A stretch of 64,000 nucleotides of DNA from Sulfurospirillum diekertiae (GTDB lineage: Bacteria > Campylobacterota > Campylobacteria > Campylobacterales > Sulfurospirillaceae): assembly GCF_002309535.1 (NCBI RefSeq), contig NZ_CP023275.1:1984001-2048000 (forward strand), given 5' to 3'. Both the position numbers and the translations under genes were made by a program. How positions within the stretch are numbered: position 1 is the first letter of the stretch; every line of letters starts with the position of its first letter. Below are positions 5,547 through 56,999 of this stretch, in pieces. The notes below the pieces were generated by a model, which worked only from the letters and a program-made list of their open reading frames with translations, had not been told where the DNA came from and made no database searches.

Positions 5547-5641
5547 ACTTTCTTTCCTACCGTTATTAAAAATTTATTTATTTTAACGAAAAAACCTAAA
5601 GGCTATTATTAAATCCCCTAAAAATAGTCACGATACGATCT

Positions 5642-28838: not shown

Positions 28839-29404
28839 AGTTTTAAGAAGTTGTTTAAAATGGCATGTCCGTGTTCACTTAAAATGGATTCTGGGTGAAA
28901 CTGTACGCCATAGATTTGTTTGTCTTTTATTTGCAGTGCCATAATTTCATGGTCGTCCGTACTGTACGCCGTGGGAACAACTACATCGGGAAGCCCTTCT
29001 TGTTCAACCGTTAGAGAATGATAACGCGTTGTTGTAAAGGTTTCAGGCAGACCATCAAACAGACAGCTGTTGTGAAGTTGTTTTGTAATAGACGTTTTCC
29101 CGTGCATCATGCGCTTCGCACGCACCACTTTTCCACCAAAAGCTTGTCCAATCGCTTGATGTCCTAAGCAAATACCTAAAATGGGGGTTTTTCCACCAAA
29201 ATATTTAATCACCTCAAGGCTGACACCCGCTTCATTAGGTGTTGCAGGACCTGGAGAAATAATAATTTTTTCGGGATGCAATGCTTCAATCTCTTCAACA
29301 CTCAGCTCATCATTGCGAATCACTTTAAGATCAGCGCCTAGTTCTAAGCAATACTGAACGATGTTGTACGTAAAACTATCGTAATTGTCTATCATCAATA
29401 CCAT
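28835..29404 (-). CDS. pabA: Glutamine amidotransferase of anthranilate/aminodeoxychorismate synthase
   Basis: A class I glutamine amidotransferase of 189 residues with Cys79 (GICLGHQAIG), His170 and Glu172 (QFHPESILSEHG). It delivers ammonia to a PabB or TrpE partner for folate or tryptophan synthesis; the two forms cannot be separated by eye and no partner gene is present, so the symbol is provisional (pabA/trpG). I choose ATG 29404, ten bases after GAGG, over an upstream in-frame TTG. It is the last core gene before the island. Confidence 0.9.
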   Translation of the reverse strand: MVLMIDNYDSFTYNIVQYCLELGADLKVIRNDELSVEEIEALHPEKIIISPGPATPNEAGVSLEVIKYFGGKTPILGICLGHQAIGQAFGGKVVRAKRMMHGKTSITKQLHNSCLFDGLPETFTTTRYHSLTVEQEGLPDVVVPTAYSTDDHEIMALQIKDKQIYGVQFHPESILSEHGHAILNNFLKL

Positions 29405-29503
29405 GTTTCTTTTTTTCCTCAAAAGCCCCTATTTTAGAGGTTTTTTTCTCTCTCACATTTTTGGATTTCTCAGATTTCTACCCTAAATGCTATATGCGAT
29501 AAA

Positions 29504-29529
29504 TATTGTATCAATTTTTGTGTTGTTTT
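29504..29529 (+). repeat. Left copy of 26-bp direct repeat bracketing the island
   Basis: The sequence TATTGTATCAATTTTTGTGT followed by TGTTTT is repeated exactly at 58264-58289 in the same orientation. The two copies lie 28.7 kb apart, one just outside pabA and one just outside the decayed IS and lplT, and so frame the accessory genes. It could be an attachment-site duplication or a mobile-element end. Confidence 0.75.
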
Positions 29530-29601
29530 TTAATTAATAGTTAGATTTTACAAAGATCAAAAAGAAGCGATAGGAAGATTTTCTTCTTATTTTCATAGAG
29601 G

Positions 29602-29826
29602 TTACTGTATTTGCACCAAATACTGAGCTACACCATGTACTGGGAACTTCACAGGTGCACGATCTCCAGTACCCATTTTTTTGAAAGGTGGAAACAGCTT
29701 TGGATACTGTTTACGCCTTCTATCAAGCGTTGATATGCTGATATTTAACACTTCTGCCACCTCTTCTCTTGTAAGCATATAGCTATACTTTTCTAACAAT
29801 TTTTGAACCAAAAGTTCAACATCCAT
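29602..29826 (-). CDS. AlpA/excisionase-like small DNA-binding protein
   Basis: About 74 residues from ATG 29826 (AGGA seven bases before; an upstream in-frame ATG at 29865 lies within the -10 region). The helix-turn-helix LTREEVAEVLNISISTLDRR followed by PKLFPPFKKMG resembles AlpA/MerR-like regulators and excisionases of prophages and islands. A TATAAT box at 29864-29869 on the minus strand is a likely promoter. It is the first gene inside the left repeat; no integrase is next to it. Confidence 0.75.
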   Translation of the reverse strand: MDVELLVQKLLEKYSYMLTREEVAEVLNISISTLDRRRKQYPKLFPPFKKMGTGDRAPVKFPVHGVAQYLVQIQ

Positions 29827-29869
29827 CGACAATCCTATTGTTGATGAACGCATTATGTTAAACATTATA

Positions 29870-30624
29870 TTGCTTCATGTCGTAAAATATGCATGAAGAC
29901 TTTTTTGACATGGTATATAGTTAAAACCTATACCAACTATGCTTCTGACAATTAAATTCTAAAGATCTAAAAGGAGCTTAGATCATTCTTTCATTTTCCT
30001 CCATTGTGTTTGTTTAACACAATACGTTACCTGCTAGTAAAAATTTAACAGATGGCATAATTAAAGCATAGTAATTATAAAAAAATTATTAATCAAAATG
30101 CTTCAAAACGCCCTTTAAATAGGCTTTTTGTAATTTTCTCAACAACAGTATTGACAAAATTAATTTGCGAAATATTTCTATCGTTCAAAAAAGTTAGTCT
30201 TCAAGTCAACTTTTTTTATAAAAATAATTGACTTATTAAACGAAGTGCAGTTTTAGTCACTCGCCAATTCAATTAAAGGCTAGAAGGCGATCTTCAACTT
30301 AAAAATCTCTGTAGAATTTTGTACTTTTGATGGCAGTCTAATTTCTATATGATATCCATAGAATTTAATTTTGGGAATAAAACTCCTATATCATGATCGA
30401 CAGTGAATAGTGCTGTATAAAGACTTCAAAATAAACCCTTAAAAAATTGACTGCAATACTTGAAATTTTCTATGTATATTTTCTACAATTATAACTGTTT
30501 GAGAATGTGAATCATGCCCTAATGCGTTAAATATAAAATACTACATATAATTATTTTTATAATCTGTAAAAACTTTCTGTCTAATATGATAATACTACGC
30601 TCAATACAAATAAGTATATTTATA
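29870..30624. other. Long non-coding AT-rich stretch
   Basis: No convincing gene, RNA or repeat is visible. An imperfect dyad around 29910-29940 (GGTATA...TATACC with ATAGTT/AACTAT) lies upstream of the AlpA-like gene and could be its operator. A lone ATCGTTC at about 30180 resembles half of the island element but lacks the TTTGCA part and a correctly spaced -10 box. Confidence 0.6.
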
Positions 30625-30689
30625 TTTGCAGAATTAGGCAATCATGGTGCACTATCGTTCTATCGTAAAAGTGGACATAATTCTATAAT
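30625..30689 (+). promoter_or_regulatory. Island regulatory element A and promoter
   Basis: TTTGCAGAATTAGGCAA starts a 38-bp element ending in ATCGTTCTA (30654-30662); 21 bases later lies TATAAT (30684-30689). The same element with identical 38-bp length stands before four other island units (B-E). Its position overlaps the -35 region, as expected for an AraC-type activator site. It drives the ten-gene unit that ends with the AraC gene. Confidence 0.85.
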
Positions 30690-30724
30690 TTCATACAACA
30701 ACTAATTGTATGGAGATAACTTTA

Positions 30725-31729
30725 ATGAACTATAAAACACTGGGAAGAACAGACACTAAAGTTTCAAGTATCGGACTTGGCTGTATGGGGATGAGCGCTG
30801 CTTATGGCGATAGAGACGATGCAGAGAGCCTTGCAACGCTACATCGTGCTTTAGAGCTTGGTATCAATTTTTGGGATACGGCTGATATTTATGCCAATGG
30901 TGTGAATGAAGAACTCATTTCAAAAGTGCTTGTAGAAAATCGCGACAAAATTTTTCTCGCTACTAAGTTTGGTTTTCGCATGCGTAGTAAGGAAGGTGAT
31001 TCTTTTGTCGGTGGTGACATTTATATTGACGGCTCGCCCAAATATATTAAACAAGCTGTTGAGGCTAGTCTAAAACGACTCAAAACTGATGTCATTGACC
31101 TTTACTATGCGCATCGCATTGACCCAAACATTCCTGTTGAAGAGACCGTAGGTGCTGTGGCTGAGCTGGTCAAAGAGGGAAAAGTGAAATATTTGGGGCT
31201 TAGTGAATGTACCGCGGATGATCTTAAAAGAGCCTATGCGATTCACCCCATCACTGCACTTCAAAGTGAGTACTCTCTGCTCACTCGCGATGTCGAAAAA
31301 GAGATACTTCCTCTTACCAAAGAGCTAGGCGTAACGTTTGTACCCTTTGCACCGCTTAGTCGTGGCCTTATTACCAATAAGCTTGAAGTTAATACACTTG
31401 AGAATAATGATTTTCGTAAAAACTTACCCCGTTACAATGGTGAATATTTAGAAAATAATCAAAAATTATCTACAGCATTTAGCGACTTTGCTACAAGCAA
31501 AAATTGCACGCCTGCTCAGCTTGCTATTGCATGGGTTATGGTACAAAGTGATAACATCATTCCAATTCCAGGTACTAAAAAGCGTAAATATTTAGAAGAA
31601 AATGCAGGCGCTGTGGATGTGGTACTCAGCGCTTCTGATTTAGCCATCATTGAGGGGATTGTTAAACAATACCCCAATATTGGTCCGCGTTACAGTGATC
31701 GTGAAAATAAGTTTGTCAAGAAATCTTAA
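30725..31729 (+). CDS. Aldo/keto reductase (AKR13-like)
   Basis: A 334-residue NADPH-type reductase with the tetrad Asp51, Tyr56, Lys81 and His130 ([19 protein letters not shown]) and the N-terminal GLGCMGMS. It should reduce aldehydes or ketones to alcohols in the cytoplasm. ATG 30725 follows GGAGATAA and is chosen over ATG 30710. It is the first gene of unit A and is a paralogue of the AKR that opens unit D. Role in carbonyl detoxification is inferred from the regulon. Confidence 0.92.
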
Positions 31730-31741
31730 CAAAGGATGATG

Positions 31742-32206
31742 ATGAAAACCCTTTTACATGTAATTCTCCTCGTCTTGTGTGGTCTATCTTTGTATGCAGA
31801 ACCAACGCAAACTATCACACATGCGGGGAGTGAGCCTACCATCAAAGGCTCAGCCGAGTATTTTGTAGGTGATGTTCATGTGGATTATCTATTTAAACCG
31901 AAAGAATCAGCTCCTTATTCAGGTGCTTATGTGACGTTTGAACCAGGAGCACGTTCGTTTTGGCATGTTCATCCCTCAGGACAGCATCTCGTTGTCACTT
32001 CAGGTACGGGTTGGACACAAGAGTGGGGAAAACCAAAAGTTGAAGTCAAAGCGGGCGATGTTATCTGGTGTCCACCGGGTGTTAAACATTGGCACGGAGC
32101 AACCGCCACAACCTCTATGACCCATATGGCCATTACGGGATTGCTTGATGGTAAAAGTGTTCAATGGCTTGAAAAAGTCACGGATGAGCAATACAATGCA
32201 CAATAA
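31742..32206 (+). CDS. Exported cupin-domain protein
   Basis: A single-domain cupin of about 154 residues with a Sec signal peptide (LLHVILLVLCGLSLYAE), so probably periplasmic. The metal-site strands are FEPGARSFWHVHPSGQHLVV (first motif, His-x-His) and PGVKHWHGATATTSMTHMAI (second motif). It is a paralogue of the signal-less cupin in unit D (compare WGKPKVEVKAGDV with WGKPAKELHSGDV). Three ATGs occur in tandem; the third is best spaced from AAAGG. Enzymatic activity is unknown. Confidence 0.88.
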   Translation: MKTLLHVILLVLCGLSLYAEPTQTITHAGSEPTIKGSAEYFVGDVHVDYLFKPKESAPYSGAYVTFEPGARSFWHVHPSGQHLVVTSGTGWTQEWGKPKVEVKAGDVIWCPPGVKHWHGATATTSMTHMAITGLLDGKSVQWLEKVTDEQYNAQ

Positions 32207-32216
32207 AGGAGCAAAC

Positions 32217-33272
32217 ATGTATAGCATAAAAACAGCATTGTTGGCACTTATAACGATATTAAGTCTTTCAGGAGAAGCAATTATGGCATCAGACTACAAA
32301 CAAAATCCTTTTACACTCACTTACAATGGAGCTATCACAGAAAATATCAAAGGTCAAATCAACATTCATCCACTGACATACAAACTGGGTGACATTGAAA
32401 TTGCCGCCAATGTCTACACACCAGCAAACTATGATCCTTCCAAAAAGTATCCAGCTGTTGTTGTGGCACATCCTAACGGTGGCGTTAAAGAGCAAGTAGC
32501 CGGCTTGTATGCGCAGCGTTTAGCCGAGAAAGGGTATATTACGATTGCTGCTGACGCCGCGTATCAAGGTGCTAGCGGTGGAATGCCGCGCAACGTCGAT
32601 AAGCCCGCTAATAGAATTGAAGACATTCATGGCATGGCTGATTTTATCACTCATTATGCAGGTGTGGATACAAATCGTCTAGGGTTACTGGGTATCTGTG
32701 GTGGCGGCGGTTATGCCCTTAAAGCAGCGCAAACCGATAAACGCTTTCATTCAGTTGCAACACTCAGTATGTTTAATTCTGGGTTAGTCAGACGCAATGG
32801 TTTTATGGACTCACAAATTGCAACCATTCAAGAACGACTCCAGCAAGCCTCTGATGCGAGAGCACAAGAAGTTACAGGCGGTAAAATTTTGTATGTGGCA
32901 GACACTATCCCAACGGATGAACAAATCGCCAAGTTACCTTATGATTTGTATCGCGAAGGGTTTGAGTATTACTTTAAAACACATGCTCATCCAAACTCAA
33001 CGTTTAAATACACAATGAGCAGCTTACTGGATTTGATGAGTTTTGATGCGGCTACTAATATGGAGCTTATCAATCAACCACTCCTTATGATAGCAGGCGA
33101 TAAAGCTGATTCTTTATACATGACATTAGAGGCATTTGAAAAAGCACATAATGTAAAAAATAAAGAGCTCTTTTTAATCAAGGGAGCAACCCATATACAA
33201 ACCTATTGGAAACCAGAATATGTTAATCAAGCTATTACTAAATTAACAGAATTCTATGCAAAATCACTCTAA
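32217..33272 (+). CDS. Exported alpha/beta hydrolase, dienelactone-hydrolase type
   Basis: About 351 residues. ATG 32217 follows AAAGGAG, and a signal peptide covers residues 1-24 or so. The nucleophile elbow reads GICGGGGY, a Cys in place of the common Ser, as in dienelactone hydrolases; the Asp (AGDKADS) and His (GATHIQ) of the triad follow. An oxyanion-side strand AVVVAHPNGGVKEQ is visible. It would cleave an ester or lactone outside the cytoplasm. Similar to YcjY-type proteins. Third gene of unit A. Confidence 0.85.
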   Translation: MYSIKTALLALITILSLSGEAIMASDYKQNPFTLTYNGAITENIKGQINIHPLTYKLGDIEIAANVYTPANYDPSKKYPAVVVAHPNGGVKEQVAGLYAQRLAEKGYITIAADAAYQGASGGMPRNVDKPANRIEDIHGMADFITHYAGVDTNRLGLLGICGGGGYALKAAQTDKRFHSVATLSMFNSGLVRRNGFMDSQIATIQERLQQASDARAQEVTGGKILYVADTIPTDEQIAKLPYDLYREGFEYYFKTHAHPNSTFKYTMSSLLDLMSFDAATNMELINQPLLMIAGDKADSLYMTLEAFEKAHNVKNKELFLIKGATHIQTYWKPEYVNQAITKLTEFYAKSL

Positions 33273-33285
33273 TAAGAGGGATGTA

Positions 33286-34377
33286 ATGACAACAATATTG
33301 AAAAAAACAATCGTTGCACTAACTTTGTTTTTTATTAGTATAAGCTTTTCTGCTTGCGCTGTTTCAGAGCATAATGACACGCTTTCACCAATGGTAATAC
33401 ATGAACAAGGAAGTTTCACCGTAGGTGGTTCTGTTATCAATAATGCAGGAGTATTTGACCCCATTAAAATGACGCCAGAAGGACAAACCATTCATGCAGA
33501 CCACGCGTATGTTTTTTATCAAATTCCCGAAAACCACCGAAAATTGCCTCTTATCTTTTGGCATGGATATGGTCAATTTTCAAAGACATGGGAGAGCACA
33601 CCCGATGGCCGAGAAGGATTTCAAAATCTTTTTTTAAGGCAAAACTACACTATATACTTACTCGACCAACCAAGGCGTGGCAATGCAGGACGAAGTACAC
33701 AGCCGATAACCATCGCGCCAACACCTGATGAACAAAAATGGTTCGATATTTTTCGTGTCGGAATTTGGCCTCATTTTTTTGATGGCGTTCAGTTTTCTCG
33801 TGATCCAGAAGCGCTCAATCAATACTTTCGCCAAATGACCCCCGATACAGGTTCCATAGATATTGCTATAAATGTCAAAGCTGTATCTGCACTCTTTGAT
33901 AAAGTTGGTAATGGTATTCTTGTAACCCATTCACACAGTGGTGGTATGGGATGGCAAGCCGTGATAAAAAATCCAAAAATTCGTGCAGTGGTTGCTTATG
34001 AACCAGGCAGTGGTTTCATCTTCCCAGAAGGTGAGGTTCCCGCTCCAAAGCCTAGTTCAGGTGGAACACTCACGGGAGAACGCATCCCATTAACTGACTT
34101 TATGAAATTAACGAAGATCCCAATTATTATCTATTATGGTGACAACATTCCCGACAAGCCCATAGATAACCCAGCGCAAGATCAATGGCGAGTACGCTTG
34201 GAAATGGCTCGGTTATGGGCGGATACGGTCAATCGTCATGGAGGCGATGTCACACTCGTACATTTGCCCGAAATTGGTATTTATGGAAATACTCATTTTC
34301 CATTTTCAGATTTAAACAACAAAGTAATTGCCCAACTTATGGCTAATTTTTTAGACCAGAAAGGGCTAAGTTACTAA
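33286..34377 (+). CDS. Alpha/beta hydrolase lipoprotein
   Basis: About 364 residues beginning at ATG 33286 (AGAGGG upstream), with a hydrophobic leader ending FSAC, a probable lipobox that would anchor it to a membrane. LIFWHGYGQFSKTWES holds the oxyanion His-Gly, the elbow is VTHSHSGGMG with the nucleophile Ser in an HSHSGG variant of GxSxG, and the late His may be in GNTHFPFSD. It is not closely similar to the preceding hydrolase. It probably cleaves esters in the periplasm; substrate unknown. Confidence 0.82.
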   Translation: MTTILKKTIVALTLFFISISFSACAVSEHNDTLSPMVIHEQGSFTVGGSVINNAGVFDPIKMTPEGQTIHADHAYVFYQIPENHRKLPLIFWHGYGQFSKTWESTPDGREGFQNLFLRQNYTIYLLDQPRRGNAGRSTQPITIAPTPDEQKWFDIFRVGIWPHFFDGVQFSRDPEALNQYFRQMTPDTGSIDIAINVKAVSALFDKVGNGILVTHSHSGGMGWQAVIKNPKIRAVVAYEPGSGFIFPEGEVPAPKPSSGGTLTGERIPLTDFMKLTKIPIIIYYGDNIPDKPIDNPAQDQWRVRLEMARLWADTVNRHGGDVTLVHLPEIGIYGNTHFPFSDLNNKVIAQLMANFLDQKGLSY

Positions 34378-34397
34378 ATATTTTATAAGGAAAAGAC

Positions 34398-35243
34398 ATG
34401 AACTATGTAATATTAAAAAATGGCATTCAAATGCCTCAACTTGGATTTGGTGTTTTTCAAATCCCCGATTTAAAACAATGTGAAGCTTCTGTAAATGAAG
34501 CCTTGGAAGTGGGATACCGCTTATTTGATACAGCAACGGCGTATCAAAATGAAGAAGCTATAGGGAATGCTCTTAAAACAAGTCCTATTGCACGTGAAGA
34601 GCTTTTTATTACAACGAAACTCTGGATCAGTGATGCGGGTTATGAAAAAACCAAAAAAGCGTTTTTCACCTCTTTAAAAAAATTAGGATTGGATTATCTT
34701 GATTTGTATCTGATTCATCAACCTTTTAATGATGTTTACGGTTCGTGGAGAGCGATGGAAGAGCTCTATAAAGAGGGGCTTATCAAAGCCATCGGTGTTT
34801 GTAATTTTGCGCCAGATAGACTCGTCGACCTTGCTCTGTATAATGAAATAGCACCCATGCTCAATCAAATCGAAGCACACCCCTTTCATCAACAACAAGA
34901 AGCGCAAACGGTGATGCAAGCGTATGACATTCAAATGCAATCGTGGGGACCTTTTGCTGAGGGGAAAAACGACATCTTCCAAAATGAGCTTCTCGCCTCC
35001 ATTGCAAAAAATCATGGTAAATCCATTGCGCAAATTGTTTTACGCTGGTTGATGCAACGCAATATTGTCGCCATTCCTAAATCAATTCGCAAAGAAAGAA
35101 TGGCTGAAAACTTCGCCATTTTTGATTTTGAATTGACAGAGCAAGAGATGCAAGACATTGTCGCACTTGACCAAAAAAAGAGTAGCTTTTTTGACCATCG
35201 TGACCCAGCAATGGTTAAGTGGCTAAGCAACTATAAATCTTAA
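34398..35243 (+). CDS. Aldo/keto reductase (2,5-diketogluconate reductase/DkgA-like)
   Basis: A 281-residue AKR5-type reductase with Asp44, Tyr49, Lys74 and His107 as the catalytic set ([19 protein letters not shown]) and the coenzyme end [13 protein letters not shown]. DkgA-like enzymes reduce methylglyoxal and other aldehydes with NADPH; in E. coli dkgA is under YqhC together with yqhD, matching the AraC gene and the iron ADH in this island. AAGGA precedes ATG. Confidence 0.92.
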
Positions 35244-35265
35244 ATCAATTGAGAGGACAACACTT

Positions 35266-35910
35266 ATGAGAAGAACAGTCGCTATTGCAGGTGCTACGGG
35301 TTTGGTTGGTAGTCATTTACTCAATAGCTTATTAACCGATCCAGCGATTGAAAAAGTTTATGCGTTGGGCAGAAAACCCTTAACTATTTCGCATGAAAAG
35401 CTAACGTTCATTCACGTTAATTTTGATGCACTACCTACTTTGCCACCCCTTGATGAAGTCTATTTGGCACTGGGAACGACCATTAAGGTTGCGGGAAGTA
35501 AAGAGGCGTTTTCAAAGGTAGATTTTACGTATAATCTAGCCGTAGCAAAAGCAGCATTAGTAGCAGGAGCGAAGAAGATAGGTGTTGTCAGCTCCATCGG
35601 AGCAGATGCTCATTCCAACAGTTTTTATCCTCAGATAAAAGGGCAACTCGAAGATGCCCTGAAAGCGTTAAAGCCCGAAGGTTTGGTCATAGTCAGACCA
35701 TCCATTTTGCTAGGAGATCGAAAATCCTTAGGTCAACCTACACGTAGGGGTGAAGAAATTTCCATTGCTCTTGCCAAGCTGTTCAACCCATTTCTGCCCA
35801 AAGCCTTCAGGGCGATAGAAGCAACGAAAGTAGCCAATGCTTTACGTGTGGAAGTGCCAAAGACTACGGGTGTTTTGATGATAGATTCGGCACACTTACA
35901 TCAATACTAA
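35266..35910 (+). CDS. NAD(P)-binding Rossmann protein (HTATIP2/NmrA-like)
   Basis: An atypical short-chain dehydrogenase of 214 residues. The cofactor loop is GATGLVGSHLL (9-19) and the family phrase YLALGTTIKVAGSKEAF plus KKIGVVSSIGAD follow, as in oxidoreductase HTATIP2/YbjT-like proteins. The usual Tyr-x-x-x-Lys is replaced by the FYPQIKGQLE segment, where Tyr and Lys are four apart, so activity is possible. Substrate unknown. Sixth gene of unit A. Confidence 0.82.
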   Translation: MRRTVAIAGATGLVGSHLLNSLLTDPAIEKVYALGRKPLTISHEKLTFIHVNFDALPTLPPLDEVYLALGTTIKVAGSKEAFSKVDFTYNLAVAKAALVAGAKKIGVVSSIGADAHSNSFYPQIKGQLEDALKALKPEGLVIVRPSILLGDRKSLGQPTRRGEEISIALAKLFNPFLPKAFRAIEATKVANALRVEVPKTTGVLMIDSAHLHQY

Positions 35911-35929
35911 TTACGAAGAAGGAAAAATA

Positions 35930-36652
35930 ATGAAGCAATCGCTATGGATTATTTTAGCTATCGTATTTAGTGGGTTCACACTATTTATGGAGGCAAAAGA
36001 GATGTCAGATATAACATTAACATCAAGACAAAAAAGCATTATTACCATTTCAGCATTGACAGCCAATGGAGACCTTGAAAAGCTCAAACCTGCTCTTGTT
36101 AAAGGCTTAGATGCAGGTCTTAGTGTCAATGAGATTAAAGAAATTTTAGTACATCTGTATGCCTATACAGGTTTCCCACGGAGCCTAAATGGTATCAATA
36201 CATTTATGACGGTGATGAATGAACGCCAAGCAAAAGGTATAAAAGACATCATGGGGAAAGAGGCGACTCCATTACCCGCTCATTTGAACAAAGATGAATA
36301 CGGTGCGCGCGTAAGAGCTGAATTGCTTGGTCAAAAAGAGATTCCAGCACCTTCAGGATACCAACTGTTCACGCCCGCCATCGATACGTTTTTAAAAGAG
36401 CACCTTTTTGCGGACATTTTTTCCCGTGATATTTTAACCCATCAAGAAAGAGAGTTGGTAACTATCTCAGCCCTTGCTTCCATGATGGGAACAGCGCCAC
36501 AACTTCAAGCGCATCTTGGGATTGCACTCAATACGGGGCTTACAAAAGAGCAATTAGAAGAGTTTATTGCCGTGCTTCAAAAAGAAGTTGGTATCGCAGA
36601 AGCACAAAGTGCTCATGATGTTTTAATGCTTGTACTCAAAAATAGAAAATAA
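35930..36652 (+). CDS. Exported carboxymuconolactone decarboxylase-like protein
   Basis: A 240-residue protein with two CMD/AhpD-like repeats (ITISALTANGDLEKL... and VTISALASMMGTAPQL...) behind a hydrophobic leader (LWIILAIVFSGFTLFMEA). Neither repeat shows the CxxC of peroxidase-type AhpD, so thiol peroxidase activity is unlikely. A start at the internal ATG 36003 would remove the leader, but GAAGGA before 35930 supports the long form. It has a leaderless paralogue in unit D. Confidence 0.85.
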   Translation: MKQSLWIILAIVFSGFTLFMEAKEMSDITLTSRQKSIITISALTANGDLEKLKPALVKGLDAGLSVNEIKEILVHLYAYTGFPRSLNGINTFMTVMNERQAKGIKDIMGKEATPLPAHLNKDEYGARVRAELLGQKEIPAPSGYQLFTPAIDTFLKEHLFADIFSRDILTHQERELVTISALASMMGTAPQLQAHLGIALNTGLTKEQLEEFIAVLQKEVGIAEAQSAHDVLMLVLKNRK

Positions 36653-36664
36653 AAAGGATACGCT

Positions 36665-37201
36665 ATGTCAAAAAAAGTTTTAATTCTCTCAGCAAGTCCA
36701 CGCAAAGGAGGCAATTCGGATCTTTTATGTGATGAATTTTTAAAAGGCTCACGTGAAGCTGGGCATAAGGCTGAGAAGATATTTTTAAAAAATAAAACGA
36801 TTGGTTACTGTACAGGCTGTGGTGTCTGTTTTGGAGGCAAGCCTTGTTCTCAAAAAGACGATATGAGCGAAATATTAGAAAAAATGGTTGAAGCGGATGT
36901 TATTGTAATGGCAACACCTGTCTATTTTTACACGATGAACGGACAGATGAAAACACTCATTGATCGTACGTGTGCGAGGTACCAAGAGATTAGCAATAAA
37001 GAGTTTTATTTTATCGTGGCCGCAGCCGATGGCAGTCATGCTTTGATGCAGAGAACCATTGAGGAGTTCCGTGGCTTTACCTACTGTTTGAGCACCCCTA
37101 AAGAAAAAGGAATTGTCTATGGAACGGGCGCTTGGCAAATGGGTGACATCAAAGGCAAACCTGCGATGAGTGAAGCCTATACTTTTGGTAAAAATGTTTA
37201 A
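36665..37201 (+). CDS. Flavodoxin-fold NAD(P)H:FMN reductase-like protein
   Basis: A 178-residue protein with the FMN phosphate loop LSASPRKGGNSDLL (7-20), the iron-sulfur-flavoprotein-like cysteines CTGCGVCFGGKPC (around 44-56), and the flavin-side ATPVYFYTMNGQMK. It likely transfers electrons from NAD(P)H to quinones, nitro compounds or metals. The Cys pattern resembles multimeric flavodoxin WrbA/Isf relatives. AAAGGA precedes ATG. The MFS gene follows three bases later. Confidence 0.88.
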   Translation: MSKKVLILSASPRKGGNSDLLCDEFLKGSREAGHKAEKIFLKNKTIGYCTGCGVCFGGKPCSQKDDMSEILEKMVEADVIVMATPVYFYTMNGQMKTLIDRTCARYQEISNKEFYFIVAAADGSHALMQRTIEEFRGFTYCLSTPKEKGIVYGTGAWQMGDIKGKPAMSEAYTFGKNV

Positions 37202-37204
37202 TAC

Positions 37205-38368
37205 ATGAATAATCGATATAAAATATATCTTCTAGCCTTTATTAGTTTTCTATTAGGAACATCCCAATTTATTATTGTGGGTGTTCTTGATCAAATCGCT
37301 ACATCTTTAAGTATTACTGTTTCACAAGCAGGACAATTGGTTAGTATATATGCTTTAGCAAGTGCTATTGGAACACCTATTATCATGATGTTGACAGCCA
37401 AGATGGATCAAAGATCTCAACTTTTACTCTCATTAGTTGTGTTTATTATTGGGGTTTTTGCGATGCTGGTATGGAATAACTATCTTTTTATTGTTATCTC
37501 GCGCGCCATTGTTGGTATCGGAGCAGGCGTATTTGTCGCTACTGCCTATGCTATGAGTGCAAAACTTGCTCCTGCTGGTGGTAAAGGGAAGGCAATGTCC
37601 AATATTGCTATGGGGTTTAGCATTGCTTTAGTTTTTGGAGTGCCTCTTGGTCGTCTCATCACTGCAGCTTATAATTGGCAAGCTATTTTTTGGCTTATTG
37701 CTGGTCTTAGTATTGTTTGTCTATTCTTTGTCATACGCACGATGCCTAAAGCTATTACGGAAACACCTATACCACTCAAAGAGCAACTTGTTTTATTAAA
37801 GCAGACCAAAGTGATTAGTGCTCTTGGTATTTCATTCCTTGTTTTCGTAAGCTATTCAATGATCTACACGTATATTACACCATTTTTAGCTTCTATTCGA
37901 ACCGTAAGCGAAACAGAGATGAGTAGCATTCTATTACTCTTTGGCATTGCCAGTTTAATAGGCTCAAAACTAGCAGGTGTTTTAGCAGATCGTATTGGCA
38001 CGTTTAAAACACTTTTGGGAAGCATGACACTTCATCTTTTAACACTTCTGGGACTCTATTTTACCTCTCGTTCTCTACTCTTAACATCCATTTTGCTATT
38101 CATTTGGGTATGTGCTTCTTGGACATTCGGTCCAGCACAGAGTATTAATTTAGCGTCTATTGCACCTAAAGCTATGGGAATAATGATTAGTCTCAATAGT
38201 TCTTTCATTCAGCTTGGCTTTGCCTTAGGTGCTGGGTTAGGAGGTGTTACAATTAGCCACTTCCCCATCATCACGCTCAGTGGTGTTGGCAGTATTTTTG
38301 TTCTTTTTGCTATTGGGATATTGCTTTTTACAATCAAAAAATACTCTCATTCTCTGCAAATGCTATAA
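37205..38368 (+). CDS. MFS efflux transporter (AraJ/YdhP-like)
   Basis: A 387-residue permease with twelve predicted membrane helices. Motifs of the drug/sugar exporter group are visible: QAGQLVSIYALASAIGTP in helix 2, RAIVGIGAGVFVATAYAMSAKLAP, and GSKLAGVLADRIG between helices 7 and 8 of the second half. It probably expels a toxic metabolite handled by the same regulon. There is no separate promoter; it is read with the reductases upstream. Confidence 0.88.
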   Translation: MNNRYKIYLLAFISFLLGTSQFIIVGVLDQIATSLSITVSQAGQLVSIYALASAIGTPIIMMLTAKMDQRSQLLLSLVVFIIGVFAMLVWNNYLFIVISRAIVGIGAGVFVATAYAMSAKLAPAGGKGKAMSNIAMGFSIALVFGVPLGRLITAAYNWQAIFWLIAGLSIVCLFFVIRTMPKAITETPIPLKEQLVLLKQTKVISALGISFLVFVSYSMIYTYITPFLASIRTVSETEMSSILLLFGIASLIGSKLAGVLADRIGTFKTLLGSMTLHLLTLLGLYFTSRSLLLTSILLFIWVCASWTFGPAQSINLASIAPKAMGIMISLNSSFIQLGFALGAGLGGVTISHFPIITLSGVGSIFVLFAIGILLFTIKKYSHSLQML

Positions 38369-38390
38369 TTAAAAAAATAAAGGAAAAAAT

Positions 38391-39305
38391 ATGGATGCAC
38401 TTTTTGAAGCATACAGAGCTGAACTCATCAAGAGAATTGAAGCAAAACGCGAGGAAGATGGAGCCATCAAAACAGTCATCCCCTCACTCAGCTTTTATCG
38501 TTCATCTTCTACGACTGAGTTTGCAACCGTTATCTATGAGCCATCATTATGCCTCGTACTGCAAGGATCAAAAGCTTTGATTCTTGGTGATGAGAACTAT
38601 AGTTATGATCCTTCTCGTTACCTTTTAGCTTCAGTACATATGCCTACACGTGTACGCATTATGGAAGCCTCTAACGAGAAACCTTACATCTCTTTAAAAC
38701 TTACATTTACAATGGAAGATATTTTTGAGGTGATGAAAGAAGCTCTTAATAAATCACTTACCCCAAATCCAACGCCTGAACTTGGCCTTTGTTTTGGAGA
38801 TATGAGTACACAAGTGATAGACCCAATCACACGCTTAGTGCGTTTACTGGATACTCCCAATAATATTAAATTTATGGCACCTATGATTATCAAAGAAATT
38901 TTATACCATGTTATTAATGACAAAGGAGGCAATTTTCTAAGAAAGTATTTAATGGATGGAAGTATTGTTCAACAAATCGTTAAAGTAATCTCAAAAATTA
39001 AACAAGACTTTGCAGAGAATATCAACATGAAAGAGCTTGCAAAAGCATATGGTATGAGCGAATCTTCGCTGTATCACAATTTCAAAAAAGTAACGATGTT
39101 AAGTCCTCTACAATTTCAAAAAACGCTCCGACTTGAAGAAGCAAGACGTATACTTTTAACCCAAGACCTTGAAGCTACTGAAGTTGCTTTCGCCGTTGGA
39201 TATGAAAGTCCATCACAGTTTAGTAGAGAATACGCTCGTATGTTTGGGCTTCCACCTAAAACTTATGCCAAAACCATTCATGAAGATACAGAAGATATCG
39301 CTTAA
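38391..39305 (+). CDS. AraC-family regulator with YqhC-like N-terminal domain
   Basis: A 304-residue activator. The N-terminal domain (FYRSSSTTEFATVIYEPSLCLVLQGSKAL) belongs to the AraC_N family that includes E. coli YqhC, which responds to aldehydes. The C-terminal AraC domain has two helix-turn-helices (MKELAKAYGMSESSLYHNFK and ATEVAFAVGYESPSQFSREYA) and the end motif FGLPPKTYAK. It is the last gene of unit A, so it is probably self-activated, and it is the best candidate to bind elements A-E. A TATAAT at 38362-38367 may give extra basal expression. Confidence 0.92.
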   Translation: MDALFEAYRAELIKRIEAKREEDGAIKTVIPSLSFYRSSSTTEFATVIYEPSLCLVLQGSKALILGDENYSYDPSRYLLASVHMPTRVRIMEASNEKPYISLKLTFTMEDIFEVMKEALNKSLTPNPTPELGLCFGDMSTQVIDPITRLVRLLDTPNNIKFMAPMIIKEILYHVINDKGGNFLRKYLMDGSIVQQIVKVISKIKQDFAENINMKELAKAYGMSESSLYHNFKKVTMLSPLQFQKTLRLEEARRILLTQDLEATEVAFAVGYESPSQFSREYARMFGLPPKTYAKTIHEDTEDIA

Positions 39306-39331
39306 TTCCTCCACTGCAATGACTGCCTATT

Positions 39332-39365
39332 GTTTTTTACATGTAAAGCTTTACATGTAAAAAAC
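39332..39365. repeat. 34-bp perfect palindrome made of two TTTACATGTAAA copies
   Basis: Two exact 12-mers (39336-39347 and 39350-39361) overlap a larger symmetry: the left half GTTTTTTACATGTAAAG is the perfect inverse of the right half. It begins 27 bases after the AraC stop and ends at the base before element B. Because T-runs precede and A-runs follow the stem on both strands, it is not a standard intrinsic terminator. Confidence 0.9.
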
Positions 39366-39431
39366 TTTGCAGAATCTGGCAATCATCATACATAATCGTT
39401 CTACCACCCAAAGAGACAATGCCACTATAAT
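39366..39431 (+). promoter_or_regulatory. Island regulatory element B and promoter
   Basis: TTTGCAGAATCTGGCAA opens and ATCGTTCTA closes (39395-39403) the 38-bp element; TATAAT follows 22 bases later (39426-39431). A TAGGAG ribosome site and the flavodoxin ATG come 35 bases after the -10 box. Same arrangement as elements A, C, D and E. Confidence 0.85.
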
Positions 39432-39465
39432 TTCTATGTTTTCATACTTATAGTAGGAGTTAGAA

Positions 39466-40065
39466 ATGGGTTCTTCATATACCAATAAACGTCGAAATTT
39501 TTTGATAGCAAGTGCAACATTAGCTGCAAGTTCATTATTACCAAATAAACTGTTTGCAAGTGAATCGATACCGAACACAAAAACTTTGATTGTCTATTTT
39601 TCACATTCAGGCAATACACGGGTTATTGCGAAAGAGATTCAAGCACAAACAGGTGGCGATTTATACGAAATTAAAACGGTTAATATATATCCAGAAGATT
39701 ATGACAGTGTTGTCGATGTTGCTAAAAAAGAGCAAAAAACAAATTTCAGACCTCAATTAACTGCTACGCTCACCAATCTGAATGATTATGATCTTTTTTT
39801 CATAGGCTATCCTAATTGGTGGGGGACTCTTCCTATGGCTCTGTTTACTTTTTTCGAAGAAAACAATTTTGCAGGAAAAACGCTTATTCCTTTTTCGACA
39901 CATGAAGGGAGTTATTTTGGCAATAGTTTATCAGATTTAAAAGCACTCAATCCAAAAGCAACATTTCTCAAAGGATTGGCAATTAGAGGAAGAAGTGTTC
40001 AGTCTGATAATACTAAAAAAGAGATCACATCATGGCTCAATGAACTCCATTTAGTCAAAAAGTAA
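39466..40065 (+). CDS. Tat-exported flavodoxin
   Basis: A 199-residue flavodoxin with a twin-arginine leader (NKRRNFLIASATLAA, cleavage probably after LFA, residue ~30). The FMN phosphate loop is YFSHSGNTRVIA, the aromatic flavin sandwich lies in GYPNWWGTLP, and the late loop FSTHEGS is typical. Tat export allows the protein to travel folded with FMN bound, so it should carry electrons in the periplasm. The next gene encodes a haem-type membrane protein eight bases on, a likely partner. Confidence 0.9.
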   Translation: MGSSYTNKRRNFLIASATLAASSLLPNKLFASESIPNTKTLIVYFSHSGNTRVIAKEIQAQTGGDLYEIKTVNIYPEDYDSVVDVAKKEQKTNFRPQLTATLTNLNDYDLFFIGYPNWWGTLPMALFTFFEENNFAGKTLIPFSTHEGSYFGNSLSDLKALNPKATFLKGLAIRGRSVQSDNTKKEITSWLNELHLVKK

Positions 40066-40073
40066 CGCTAGTT

Positions 40074-40793
40074 ATGTTCTTACATCAACCACTTGTTCGA
40101 TTATATACCAATCTCTTTTTGCTTGGACTCATCCCTTTCTCGCTTCTCAACAAAATAACGGGTAATATCATTCATGAAATAATAGGTTTGGCCATCATCC
40201 TCTTTCTAGGAAGCCATACCTTTTTAAACATACATTGGTATGGCTCTTTTTTTAAACAAAGAAACCGTGTTCAAAGAGTCTTTAATACCGTTATCATTCT
40301 ACTACTTTTAGTTAGTTTTGGCTCATTGATCCTTAGTAGTTTTATGATTTCTAAATCACTTTTTTCTTTCTTAGGATTTAAAAGCACACTTATGTTGCGT
40401 CAAATTCATACAACTTCTGCTTATTGGTTTGTTATTTTCTGTTTCATTCATTTAGGGATTCATTGGCAACGATTTTGGGTGCTGTTTAGAAAAATTTTAG
40501 CCAGAGTTATTAACCTGAACTTCATACTACCACGTCAACTCTCTGCAATTTTTTCTCTACTGGTTATCTTTTATGCAGGATGGGTATTTATTCAAAGGGA
40601 TATTCTCTCAAAGCTTTTTATGACATTTGCTTTTGAATTTTGGGATAACGAACAAGCGGGATGGAAAATATTGATGGATGATGTGATTCTGATGATCGCC
40701 TTAGTTATTCTGACACAATCTGTACAAAAATGGACAAAAGCTCTATTTCTTTTTATAGATACTTTAGTGTACGTCCAAAAGAAAAAACCATAA
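40074..40793 (+). CDS. DUF4405-like membrane protein, probable b-type haem carrier
   Basis: A 239-residue protein with about six membrane helices. Two similar segments carry His pairs: HEIIGLAIILFLGSHTFLNIHW and RQIHTTSAYWFVIFCFIHLG, spacing that suits two bis-His haems across the membrane as in cytochrome b561/DUF4405 proteins. It could pass electrons between the quinone pool and the Tat-exported flavodoxin encoded just upstream; direction and partner are inferred. The C-terminal helix ends in a basic tail. Confidence 0.78.
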   Translation: MFLHQPLVRLYTNLFLLGLIPFSLLNKITGNIIHEIIGLAIILFLGSHTFLNIHWYGSFFKQRNRVQRVFNTVIILLLLVSFGSLILSSFMISKSLFSFLGFKSTLMLRQIHTTSAYWFVIFCFIHLGIHWQRFWVLFRKILARVINLNFILPRQLSAIFSLLVIFYAGWVFIQRDILSKLFMTFAFEFWDNEQAGWKILMDDVILMIALVILTQSVQKWTKALFLFIDTLVYVQKKKP

Positions 40794-40808
40794 TATGAAC
40801 CTAAAAAA

Positions 40809-40874
40809 TTTGCAGAATCAGACAACTTTTATGGATTATCTTTCTACCACCACGCCCTTCTTTCATTCTATAAT
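40809..40874 (+). promoter_or_regulatory. Island regulatory element C and promoter
   Basis: TTTGCAGAATCAGACAA starts and ATCTTTCTA (40838-40846) ends the 38-bp element, 22 bases before TATAAT (40869-40874). It is the most divergent copy in its second part, yet the length and spacing are unchanged. It controls the FMN reductase and iron ADH genes. Confidence 0.82.
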
Positions 40875-40901
40875 ACTGCATAAGTTAACCAAGGGCGATT
40901 A

Positions 40902-41567
40902 ATGAAAGTTTTAATGATAAATGGTAGCTCTAACAGAAAAGGGTGTACCTACACTGCACTACAAGAAGTTGCAGGAATATTGGAAAAAGAAAATATCGAG
41001 ACGGAAGTTGTCCAACTGGGCAATCTTTCTCTAAGAGATTGCAGTGGCTGTTTTGGGTGTAAGGATACGGGTAAATGTGTTTTTGATGATCTTGTTAATG
41101 AAGTGATTGAAAAAGCAAAAACCTGTGATGGTTTTATCTTTGGAACCCCTGTGTATTACGGACATCCAACAGGTAGAATTTTATCGTTTTTAGACAGAGC
41201 TTTTTTTGCTGGGCACCAGGCGTTTGAGTACAAACTAGGTGCTTCTGTAATTATCTCAAGACGCTCAGGCAACACTGCTAGTTTTGATGTAATGAATAAA
41301 TACTTTACCATCAATAACATGCCCGTCGTTTCCAGTCAGTATTGGAACAATGTTCATGGTCTCGTGCCTGAAGATACTAGGCATGATTTAGAAGGAATGC
41401 AAACGATGCGAACGCTTGGAAAGAACATGTCGTGGCTTTTAAAATGCATCGATTTGGGAAAACAAAATGGACTTAGTGTACCTAAAAGTACCGAACACAG
41501 AGTGCATACAAATTTTATCGATAACCCTGAGAATTACTTAAACGGCAAGATGCAAGGCGCAGAATAA
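40902..41567 (+). CDS. Flavodoxin-fold NADPH-dependent FMN reductase
   Basis: A 221-residue flavoprotein of the Isf/FMN-reductase group: loop NGSSNRKGCTYTAL (7-20), cysteine cluster CSGCFGCKDTGKC (about 47-59) that could hold an iron-sulfur centre, and GTPVYYGHPTGRILSFLDRA on the flavin side. It is longer than its unit A relative, with an added C-terminal helix region. It likely reduces quinones or electrophiles. First gene of unit C. Confidence 0.88.
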   Translation: MKVLMINGSSNRKGCTYTALQEVAGILEKENIETEVVQLGNLSLRDCSGCFGCKDTGKCVFDDLVNEVIEKAKTCDGFIFGTPVYYGHPTGRILSFLDRAFFAGHQAFEYKLGASVIISRRSGNTASFDVMNKYFTINNMPVVSSQYWNNVHGLVPEDTRHDLEGMQTMRTLGKNMSWLLKCIDLGKQNGLSVPKSTEHRVHTNFIDNPENYLNGKMQGAE

Positions 41568-48685: not shown

Positions 48686-49921
48686 TTATGCTTGCATATC
48701 AATCACGTAACGATAACGTGCTTTTTTAGCAACCACTTTTTCCCATGCATCCGTAATCTCACTCATTGCAATTTTAGTGATTTGAGGTTTAATGTTATGA
48801 AGTGCACAAAAATCTACTAGTTCTTGTGTTTCACGAATACCCCCGATTTGTGAACTTGCGTACGAAGTTCGCGTACGAAGCAATGAAAATGGTCCAATTT
48901 CATAAGGATCATTGACTTTTCCGACGCCAACCATGCAATACGTGGAGTCTTGTTTTAAGAGTGTAAAAAGCTTGTCAAGTTTATGTTTATAAGGAGCTGT
49001 GTCAATAATAAAGTCTAAGGAGCGATCAAATTTTGAAAGATCCGTACTATCAGGATTAACAATCACCTCTTTTGCACCAAAATTTTTGGCATCGGCTACT
49101 TTATCCGGAGATGTGGTAATTACAGTTACTTCAGCACCCATGGCTGTTGCAATTTTTACTGCCATATGACCTAACCCGCCAAGTCCTACAACACCAACTT
49201 TTTTGCCAGGTCCAACACTCCAATGACGAAAAGGTGAATACACGGTAATTCCCGCACACATCATTGGACCTGCATCTGCCAAATCAACAGCAGCTGGGAC
49301 ATGAATAATAAAATCTTCATTCACCACATTAAAAGTTGAGTATCCTCCTTGCGTCATCGTTCCATCACGATCAGTCGAACCATATGTAAACACTGCACCG
49401 TTTTCACAGTACTGCTCCATTCCCATATCGCACATTTCACAATGATGGCACGAGTTAACCATACAGCCAACGCCAACACGATCCCCTACTTTAAATTTAC
49501 TTACACTTGAGCCAATAGCCGTTACAACACCGGCTAATTCATGCCCGGGAACGAGTGGAAATTTTTCTTTTCGCCAATCTTCGTGACCATGATGGATATC
49601 AGAATGACAAACACCGCAATAATGAAGCTTCATTGCAACATCTTTTGGACCTAACGCTCTTCTTTGAAAATGTAGAGGTTTAAGAGGCTCCGTTGCTGAA
49701 TACACAGCCATTCCCATTGTTGGGTACGGCCCTTGATCTCCTACTTTGTTTGTTGGATTGGTTTCTGCAGCCTGAGCTGAAAGTGGATTTAAAAGCCCTG
49801 TAGCTCCCGTACCCAAAGCTATAGCACCTGTTAACATAAAGTTTCGTCGATTGCTATCGTGAGTTGTATTGGACTCTAGGGTATCTTGCACGTGATCTGT
49901 CTCATTTGATTGCTTTTTCAT
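48686..49921 (-). CDS. Zinc-dependent alcohol dehydrogenase with Tat signal
   Basis: A 411-residue medium-chain ADH of the YahK/CAD type. Residues 1-52 form a Tat leader (SNRRNFMLTGAIALGTGATG, cleavage after AQA). The mature enzyme has catalytic zinc ligands (YCGVCHSDIHHGHED, PGHEL), a structural zinc set of four Cys (CHHCEMCDMGMEQYC) and the Rossmann loop GLGGLGHMA. A folded NAD(P)-dependent enzyme in the periplasm is unexpected because free NAD(P)H is scarce there. AAGGAG precedes the first ATG. Confidence 0.9.
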   Translation of the reverse strand: MKKQSNETDHVQDTLESNTTHDSNRRNFMLTGAIALGTGATGLLNPLSAQAAETNPTNKVGDQGPYPTMGMAVYSATEPLKPLHFQRRALGPKDVAMKLHYCGVCHSDIHHGHEDWRKEKFPLVPGHELAGVVTAIGSSVSKFKVGDRVGVGCMVNSCHHCEMCDMGMEQYCENGAVFTYGSTDRDGTMTQGGYSTFNVVNEDFIIHVPAAVDLADAGPMMCAGITVYSPFRHWSVGPGKKVGVVGLGGLGHMAVKIATAMGAEVTVITTSPDKVADAKNFGAKEVIVNPDSTDLSKFDRSLDFIIDTAPYKHKLDKLFTLLKQDSTYCMVGVGKVNDPYEIGPFSLLRTRTSYASSQIGGIRETQELVDFCALHNIKPQITKIAMSEITDAWEKVVAKKARYRYVIDMQA

Positions 49922-50052: not shown

Positions 50053-51130
<1,078 letters not shown>

Positions 51131-51184: not shown

Positions 51185-52609
51185 TTAAAGGGTATCAGCG
51201 TGTCGTTCAAACACCTCTTTATCCCAACCACCCCCGAGTGATTTGTACAAAGAAACCCCTGAACTGAGCAAAGCTTGCTTCGTTTGTGATGTAGCCAGTT
51301 TTGCTGAGAGTAGATTACGCTTTGCATCTAAAAGCGTAAGGTAATCGCCATAGCCATTTTCATACTGTTTTTTAGCGAGTAAGTACACTTGCTCAATATT
51401 TTTCTCATAGGAGAGCTGATGCTCTAGTTTTTGTGTGAGAGTATGTCGTTTGTTAAGGGCATCATAGGCATCTTGAAACGCTTGTTGAACCGTCTTTGCA
51501 TACGCAATCTCTGCTAACTCTTTGTTCGCTTTTGCACTCTCCACGTTGGAACTGGTTTTTCCCATATTAAACAATGGTGAGGCAAGGCTTCCACCAAAAC
51601 TATTCATCCCTGATTGGGATTTCATCAGGTTAGAAAGCTGTGTGCTCTCAAAGCCAAGTGCCCCTGAGAGGCTAATACTTGGAAAATAAGCAGCTCGTGC
51701 CACACCGATGTTGGCATTGGCTGCTTTTAAATTCTCTTCGGCTTGGGTAATATCAGGGCGTTTGGTTAAAAGCTCGGAAGGCAAATTGGCAGGCACGTTG
51801 ACATCGCTTGGTAAAACGCGTGGTAAGCCATCTTTACTAAACGCCGCTATGGCTTCGGGTGATTTGCCTACGAGTACAGCCAACGCACTTTGTTGGAGTA
51901 AAATCGCTTGCTCTAGCGCATCTTTCGTGATTTGAGCACTGTTCAGCTCTGCACGATCGGAGGCAAGAGTTCCTTTAGAAATAGCACCAAGCGTATACTT
52001 CGCCTCATTGCGCTTAAGCCCCTCTTCTCTTGCTTGTATTGTCTCATTGGTAATATCGAGTTGCTCATACAAACTAATCAATGTAAAGTAACTATCCGCC
52101 ACATTGGAAGCTAAAGAGATTTTTACCGTGTCTTTTGCCGCATACGTAGCGATCAACGAAGCACGAGAGGAAGCTTCAGCTTCTTTGTATTTACCCCAAA
52201 GATCAAGCTCATAACTAAGAACGGCACTGAGTGAAAAATCATTGTACGTATTATGCGCTTTAGAATTAAAGGTATCGCCACTGCTTCGAATTCTCTGACC
52301 AGAGCCCTGAACATCAAGGCTTGGGTAACGATCCGATGTACTTCGTGAAAGCGTTGCACGCGCCAAAGAGATATTGGCCATCGCTGATTGAAGATCATAG
52401 TTATTCTTCAGTGCCTCTTCAATTAAAGCGGTCAATTTTGCATCATGGTAATTGTTCCACCATGCTGCATCGACATACGGTGTTTCACTCTTTACATCCG
52501 AGCGGTACGCTTCTGGAAACGGTGTTGTGGGGACATTCAGCTCTGGAGAGAGTGAACATCCACTAAGAATTAAGGCTAGTACAGCACTGTAATAAAGACT
52601 ATTCTTCAT
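51185..52609 (-). CDS. RND outer membrane factor lipoprotein (NodT/OprM family)
   Basis: About 474 residues starting at ATG 52609 (AAGGA upstream; an earlier in-frame ATG lies within the pump gene). A lipobox LILSGC gives a lipidated Cys near residue 17. Two outer-membrane-efflux repeats follow, with YELDLWGKYKEAEASSRAS in the first and KRPDITQAEENLKAANANIGVARAAYFPS between them, all diagnostic of the NodT group. It is the exit duct of the tripartite pump and overlaps the pump gene by 11 bases. Confidence 0.93.
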   Translation of the reverse strand: MKNSLYYSAVLALILSGCSLSPELNVPTTPFPEAYRSDVKSETPYVDAAWWNNYHDAKLTALIEEALKNNYDLQSAMANISLARATLSRSTSDRYPSLDVQGSGQRIRSSGDTFNSKAHNTYNDFSLSAVLSYELDLWGKYKEAEASSRASLIATYAAKDTVKISLASNVADSYFTLISLYEQLDITNETIQAREEGLKRNEAKYTLGAISKGTLASDRAELNSAQITKDALEQAILLQQSALAVLVGKSPEAIAAFSKDGLPRVLPSDVNVPANLPSELLTKRPDITQAEENLKAANANIGVARAAYFPSISLSGALGFESTQLSNLMKSQSGMNSFGGSLASPLFNMGKTSSNVESAKANKELAEIAYAKTVQQAFQDAYDALNKRHTLTQKLEHQLSYEKNIEQVYLLAKKQYENGYGDYLTLLDAKRNLLSAKLATSQTKQALLSSGVSLYKSLGGGWDKEVFERHADTL

Positions 52610-55600: not shown

Positions 55601-55727
55601 GCGGAGGCGTAACCTCTGGATACTCCTCAATAGGCAAGCCTTTTATACCCATCAAGCCCGCTATAATCACAACAATCGAAAGGACGGTTGCAAAAATAGG
55701 CCTGTTGATAAAAAATTTAGAAAACAT
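52599..55727 (-). CDS. RND multidrug efflux pump (AcrB/MexB-like)
   Basis: A 1042-residue HAE1 permease with the usual twelve helices and two large periplasmic loops. Visible are FFINRPIFATVLSI at the N-terminus, the proton-relay Asp pair in GIVVDDAIIVIENV, and the second-half Lys of SAKNAILIVEFA. It uses the proton gradient to expel drugs, solvents or other hydrophobic compounds through the outer membrane factor encoded next. It lies three bases after the adaptor gene. Confidence 0.96.
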   Translation of the reverse strand: MFSKFFINRPIFATVLSIVVIIAGLMGIKGLPIEEYPEVTPPQVVVSTTYNGANAETISKTVAAPIEEQINGVENMMYMSSTASSTGSLSINVYFKIGTNADQATINVNNRVQAALNKLPSEVQAQGVTVRKRSSNIIKLVTLVSPKQSYDQIYLANYALINVIDELKRIEGVGDASLFGTLDYSMRIWMKPDQLAKYNLTPADVINAVSQQNAQFAAGRFNQTPSESSQAYTFTISTKGRLDKVDEFEKIILKSNKDGSTLRLRDVARVELGAKSYDILGKLNGQPGIPIGIYLQSGANALATGKRVEAAMAEIAKSFPEDIEYHVPYDTTKFVEVSAQEVVKTLIEALLLVVIIVYMFLQNMRATIIPVLAIPVSIIGTFAGMYALGFSINLLTLFGLVLAIGIVVDDAIIVIENVERILHSEKDITVKDATIKAMQEVTGPVVAIVLVLCAVFIPVTFMGGFTGAMYQQFAITIVISVVISGFVALTLTPALCAILLKKQEPQPFWFVKKFNEFFDASTNWFTSGVSLLVRHGMISLIIFAVMIGTTYQLFQEIPTSLVPNEDKGYLATLVSLPPAATLNRTQKVMDQLDDITLKMDDVVYSMVITGFDRSSGANKSNAGTSFLLLKDWDERKDPSHHSMVLSKKYNEAFAKIADANIFTVNPPPIIGLSLTGGFEMYLQDRVGGSFHDLGNVVNDVVAKARQRPELMVVRSTFDSAVPQYRMNVDREKAMALGVSIQNLFSTLQATFGAYYVNDFNLFGRTYQVNVQSEANFREKPEDLRNVFVKSDNGKLIPLSSLVSYERIVGPDIVDRFNLFSAAKIMGEPAPGYTSGDALKAIEEVVKEVAPSGYTIAWSGTAYQEKAMSGSGSQAFIFGLVFIFLILSAQYERWLMPLAVITAVPFAVFGAIMAVYLRGLSNDIYFQIGLLVLIALSAKNAILIVEFAMQAQEKGKSIFDATLEAARLRFRPIVMTSLAFTIGVLPLAISSGAGAGSRHAIGTGVIGGMIAATTIAIFFIPLFYNWLASLNAKFSRKGKKDEE

Positions 55728-55730
55728 ACT

Positions 55731-56888: not shown

Positions 56889-56934
56889 TTTTCGCTCCAT
56901 TTATATATCTAATAAGAATAATTTGTGTTGAAGA

Positions 56935-56999
56935 ATTATAGGTATTAATAAGATATCTCGATAGAATGATAATCCTCAATGGTTGCCTAATTATGCAAA
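56935..56999 (-). promoter_or_regulatory. Island regulatory element E and promoter
   Basis: On the minus strand TTTGCATAATTAGGCAA (from 56999) to ATCATTCTA (56970-56962) is the 38-bp element, 21 bases before TATAAT (56940-56935). One base differs from the consensus (T for G after TTTGCA). It controls the RND operon, tying the pump to the reductase units. Confidence 0.85.

Follow-up and report, generated by a model that had tools for sequence, protein, structure and literature searches.

How does a flavodoxin with a twin-arginine leader keep its flavin outside the cytoplasm, and what would it do there beside a membrane protein of the DUF4405 family? The question is raised by two adjacent genes in a 64,000-nucleotide stretch of Sulfurospirillum diekertiae DNA (contig NZ_CP023275.1, positions 1,984,001 to 2,048,000), termed here the window, whose coordinates are used unless stated otherwise. 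The answer that we favor, and regard as fairly probable, is that the pair constitutes a small extracytosolic electron-transfer module in which export by the twin-arginine (Tat) route would replace the covalent FMN bond made by ApbE.

The first gene (39466..40065, + strand) encodes 199 amino acids, of which residues 39-193 match the Pfam family Flavodoxin_4 (PF12682) with an E value of 8.6e-29; the NCBIfam model PRK06934 scores 172.5 bits, just over its cut-off of 172. The twin-arginine leader TNKRRNFLI is found at the N-terminus. On inspection, the leader MGSSYTNKRRNFLIASATLAASSLLPNKLFA (next residue S) is consistent with a Tat signal, the twin-arginine motif being followed by a moderately hydrophobic stretch. 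Both KRRNFLI and the hydrophobic stretch are kept in a sister-species relative (locus L012 of genome G013) at 74-75% flavodoxin identity. The flavodoxin with a Tat leader proposed in the sequence-only reading is thereby confirmed. The window contains only two convincing Tat leaders, that of the flavodoxin and that of a zinc alcohol dehydrogenase, and TatC is encoded in the genome. The nearest solved relatives are the flavodoxin-fold proteins 4ICI, 3KLB and 4J8P, and 3KLB carries non-covalent FMN (PMC11334425). The FMN loop of the window protein (SHSGNT) is short and without an insert, and neither flavinylation motif searched for, D..[ST][GSA]A[ST] or [ST]GA[ST], occurs in the sequence. There is no apbE in the gene cluster; the single apbE of the genome is about 379 kb away.

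The second gene (40074..40793, +) starts 8 bp after the flavodoxin open reading frame on the same strand. Its product matches the DUF4405 profile with an E value of 1.5e-9, which passes the cut-off, and Pfam gives nothing besides DUF4405. The structure model (pLDDT 91.5) displays six membrane helices, not the two membrane segments described earlier; the His pairs of that description are present on helices two and four, with a spacing of 14 positions. The four residues, H34, H48, H112 and H126, are invariant in 26/26 relatives, and a purified DUF4405 protein from Oscillospiraceae, likened to MsrQ, holds haem b (PMC11334425). The haem-type partner previously suggested is supported, and the protein is predicted to be a di-haem b cytochrome. 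Under the positive-inside rule, the sequence predicts that the C-terminus and the K/R-rich loops that follow helices 2 and 4 are cytoplasmic; each pair would then have one His close to either membrane face. A Foldseek comparison of the model with the PDB gave no match with an E value below 0.001.

Upstream of the pair is a 38-bp box, termed element B (39366..39403, +), with the sequence TTTGCAGAATNNGRCAA-N11-ATCNTTCTA or near it. A -10 hexamer, TATAAT (39426..39431, +), follows at 60 bases counted from the start of the box. About 16 bases past the DUF4405 stop, element B occurs again (40809..40846, +). Together with the 8-bp gap between the genes, this arrangement agrees with the earlier claim that they form their own unit behind element B; no terminator-like site was found in 39200-41000. 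The full box has five matches in the genome and none in a reversed control, a weaker sixth copy is present at 56983 in the window, and the half-box pattern, with up to three mismatches, is found 10 times in the window where 2.15 matches are expected. At all six promoters a TATAAT-like hexamer is situated 59-60 bases from the box start. A perfect 34-nt palindrome (39332..39365), which forms a strong RNA hairpin (MFE -20.3 kcal/mol, z -5.8), separates the box from the upstream AraC gene; it is kept in the sister species, and two weaker related sequences occur at other places in the genome.

This AraC-family regulator (38391..39305, +) has an AraC_N domain and an AraC-type HTH, is YqhC-like and a probable activator, and is encoded in the neighborhood of a YqhD-like alcohol dehydrogenase. 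It is the last gene of a ten-gene operon (30710-39305) that consists of an aldo/keto reductase, a cupin, two hydrolases, a second aldo/keto reductase, an NAD-binding protein, a decarboxylase-like CMD protein, an FMN_red protein, a transporter and the regulator, and that is preceded by its own copy of element B (30625..30662, +). The copy behind the DUF4405 gene precedes genes for FMN_red (40902) and a YqhD-like Fe-dependent alcohol dehydrogenase (41603), whose best NCBIfam match, PRK15138, is under its cut-off. On the opposite strand, a copy at 51093..51130 (-) precedes an aldo/keto reductase (50053-51036) followed by the Tat-leader zinc alcohol dehydrogenase (48686-49921), a CMD protein, a short-chain dehydrogenase and a cupin. 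The weaker copy, with two mismatches (56962..56999, -), is found before an efflux operon (51185-56900), called RND-type from a reading of the sequence and not from a family search. A distant copy at genome position 2243264, about 200 kb from the island, precedes an aldo/keto reductase and a transporter. In the sister genome, element B is present before the pair (L012 at 1392), the YqhD-like gene and the first aldo/keto reductase.

The six promoters probably form a regulon run by the YqhC-like protein, the position of the boxes pointing to element B as its probable operator. Co-regulation of the pair with an aldehyde- or electrophile-type gene set is supported. In E. coli, YqhC activates yqhD-dkgA and has a single binding site (PMC8249747), which makes a putative regulon of six promoters notable.

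Is the association of the two genes more than a local arrangement? Eighty genome loci were sampled, along with plasmid loci and Campylobacterota loci, all chosen by likeness to the window flavodoxin; leaders were classed by eye, using a simple scheme of sequence patterns and hydropathy, and DUF4405 was detected with a profile built from the sampled loci. A DUF4405 gene was found within 300 bp of 24/65 exported and 0/40 cytosolic relatives (p 1.7e-6), and within 1500 bp of 29/62 exported and 2/38 cytosolic relatives (p 5e-6), p values that serve as a guide only since the loci were picked for likeness and are non-independent. In two loci (L089, 4189-6465, and L096, 4306-6552) the partners are fused in a single protein, in which DUF4405 is joined through an additional hydrophobic segment to an FGE-sulfatase domain and Flavodoxin_4. 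This segment would leave the C-terminal region on the outer side, in agreement with an extracytosolic flavodoxin; the fusion protein model is poor (pLDDT 60.5), and the seventh helix appears in it at low confidence only. The DUF4405 and flavodoxin genes overlap in Campylobacterota loci L102 and L103. Adjacency, the two fusions and the haem b published for a family member argue that the functional pairing of flavodoxin and DUF4405 is real. The partnership itself had already been published in mSystems in 2024, for covalently flavinylated flavodoxins (PMC11334425), a point missing from the sequence-only reading.

The same counts bear on whether the leader is used at all. Were it vestigial or unused, the flavodoxin would act on the cytoplasmic face of the membrane. 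This is very improbable, as adjacent DUF4405 genes accompany exported and not cytosolic relatives, the Tat motif and hydrophobic stretch have been kept in the sister species at 74% identity, and TatC is present. The pairing is not universal among Tat flavodoxins. In 8/12 Tat-leader proteins counted, the window protein included in the twelve, there is no DUF4405 gene within 300 bp, which suggests that Tat flavodoxins can use something else. Three Campylobacterota loci (L104, L105 and L106) encode Tat-leader Flavodoxin_4 proteins that form a separate branch and have no DUF4405 gene in the roughly 1.4 kb that flank them on each side.

The published account holds that extracytosolic flavodoxins are flavinylated and cytosolic ones are not (PMC11334425). 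On the present sample this statement is incomplete, as a short loop without an insert is present in 34 of the 69 proteins classed as exported; nine have an insert that bears the flavinylation motif or comes near it. In the flavodoxin tree the motif-bearing sequences lie apart from the set that includes the window protein, a set with weak support (81/78), and the Tat label requires four changes on the tree. It is likely that Tat export of a folded, FMN-loaded flavodoxin represents an alternative to flavinylation. It would not be the sole alternative, because many Sec, lipoprotein and membrane-anchored relatives are also without the motif. A strict rule by which Tat means non-covalent and Sec means flavinylated was rejected for this reason, most exported short-loop relatives being of those other kinds. 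No apbE was found near the related loci, a weak test with a single phmmer query, the distant ApbE of this genome, on loci of at most about 12.6 kb. In the literature searched, none of the terms exported, secreted, periplasmic or Tat-dependent flavodoxin is applied to this family, and the only extracytosolic one described is flavinylated.

What the exported flavodoxin acts on is a separate question. Exported enzymes encoded in the same island had been suggested to receive reducing power from the pair. The cupin, the CMD protein and the two alpha/beta hydrolases of the upstream operon do carry export signals, and flavodoxin, DUF4405, cupin, CMD and both hydrolases are kept together in Citrobacter cassettes, while in a Desulfovibrio locus (L021) a Tat-leader FMN_red, a CMD protein and a Tat flavodoxin stand in a row. 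However, none of these enzymes of the island is known to act in redox chemistry or has an obvious redox cofactor, the CMD protein is devoid of Cys, and export of CMD or cupin showed no association with export of the flavodoxin over 21 loci (6/14 vs 3/7, p = 1). The suggestion is not supported, and a role of the flavodoxin as a carrier that reduces particular enzymes exported from the island is decidedly unlikely. The Desulfovibrio locus (3480-6588) also encodes a Tat-leader amidohydrolase; its CMD protein has a hydrophobic N-terminal segment, and most of the cassette seems to have been relocated outside the cytoplasm.

Within the regulon, the only exported oxidoreductase is the Tat-leader zinc alcohol dehydrogenase (48686-49921, -), a nucleotide-cofactor enzyme that is apparently exported folded. 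It is absent from the sister genome, which retains the pair. As an obligatory partner it was rejected: among ten genomes only G126, G233 and G264 gave matches, and G013 did not. In locus L111 a homologue that also has a Tat leader is found near a Tat flavodoxin.

The dehydrogenase also bears on the direction of electron flow. In a reversed line, the exported flavodoxin would oxidize a periplasmic substrate and electrons would pass via DUF4405 to the quinone pool. Haem wires of this type are reversible, the direction is not set by the His pattern or the model of DUF4405, and a Tat-leader alcohol dehydrogenase does belong to the regulon. Against this, the co-regulated genes are by family mostly reductases (aldo/keto reductases, FMN_red and the YqhD-like Fe-dependent alcohol dehydrogenase), and the sister genome has the pair without the Tat-leader dehydrogenase, so that oxidation in this direction is unlikely, if less so than a role as carrier to the island's enzymes.

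The preferred reading is one of outward electron transfer. The YqhC-like protein, probably by sensing reactive aldehydes or comparable electrophiles, would activate the promoter of the pair via element B. The flavodoxin would fold and bind its presumed FMN non-covalently in the cytoplasm, and would then be exported in folded form by Tat. The DUF4405 protein, with two predicted b-type haems, may convey electrons to the exported flavodoxin, drawn either from the quinol pool or from a reductase in the cytoplasm. The flavodoxin would in turn probably reduce a small electrophile in the periplasm, for example a quinone, or another partner. Direct reduction of such an electrophile by the flavodoxin itself appears the most likely outcome. 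Handling of electrophiles or aldehydes fits the neighbors that recur among 94 scanned: aldo/keto reductase 10, CMD 8, FMN_red 7 and cupin 5. If the proposal is correct, extracytoplasmic flavin electron carriers can do without covalent flavinylation, with Tat export as an alternative that offers a clear test, and the placing of a line from haem to flavodoxin within a regulon for aldehyde stress would hint at what a cytochrome family still under a DUF number does physiologically.

The cassette is present in the sister genome, where identities are 89% for the AraC protein, 91% for the YqhD-like protein and 91% for the first aldo/keto reductase; for the pair they are 74% (flavodoxin) and 55% (DUF4405). 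A genome of the same species (G106) has no flavodoxin match, though 28840-30326 is matched there at 95%. Among 60 close relatives sampled, matches to the flavodoxin were confined to G000, G013 and a third, more distant genome, and its distribution is thus patchy.

Among known systems, the window pair resembles the published Flavodoxin_4-DUF4405 pairs in its proposed mode of action and belongs with them, yet it has neither the flavinylation motif nor a nearby apbE. Like the ApbE-flavinylated pairs (PMC11334425), it combines the two families, an extracytosolic flavodoxin by prediction and a four-His DUF4405 protein; it differs from them also in the Tat leader and in the AraC/YqhC-type regulon. 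With the E. coli YqhC system it shares an AraC regulator with AraC_N, a YqhD-like alcohol dehydrogenase and aldo/keto reductases, but the one site of E. coli compares with six boxes here, the most remote of them far outside the island.

Cassettes comparable to that of the window are found in Citrobacter (L017 and L054) and in part in Yersinia (L063). The Citrobacter cassette has an exported cupin 61% identical to that of the window, hydrolases at 74-76% and 58%, a CMD protein at 43-44% and a flavodoxin-DUF4405 pair. In contrast, its flavodoxin is only 36-37% identical, carries a Sec leader and a DGFSGAS motif and falls in another part of the tree, and its DUF4405 protein is distant as well, which looks like an exchange of both genes together. 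Whether the family keeps its FMN interchangeably with one kind of DUF4405 partner, by flavinylation after Sec export or as a folded holoprotein exported by Tat, with the Citrobacter cassette of the one type and the window pair of the other, is in our judgment evenly balanced. A further parallel is MsrPQ, in which the haem membrane protein MsrQ feeds the Tat-exported MsrP. Like the pair as proposed here, MsrPQ joins a haem membrane wire to a Tat-exported cofactor protein; in the window, however, the membrane protein matches DUF4405 only, and its partner is a flavodoxin rather than a molybdoenzyme.
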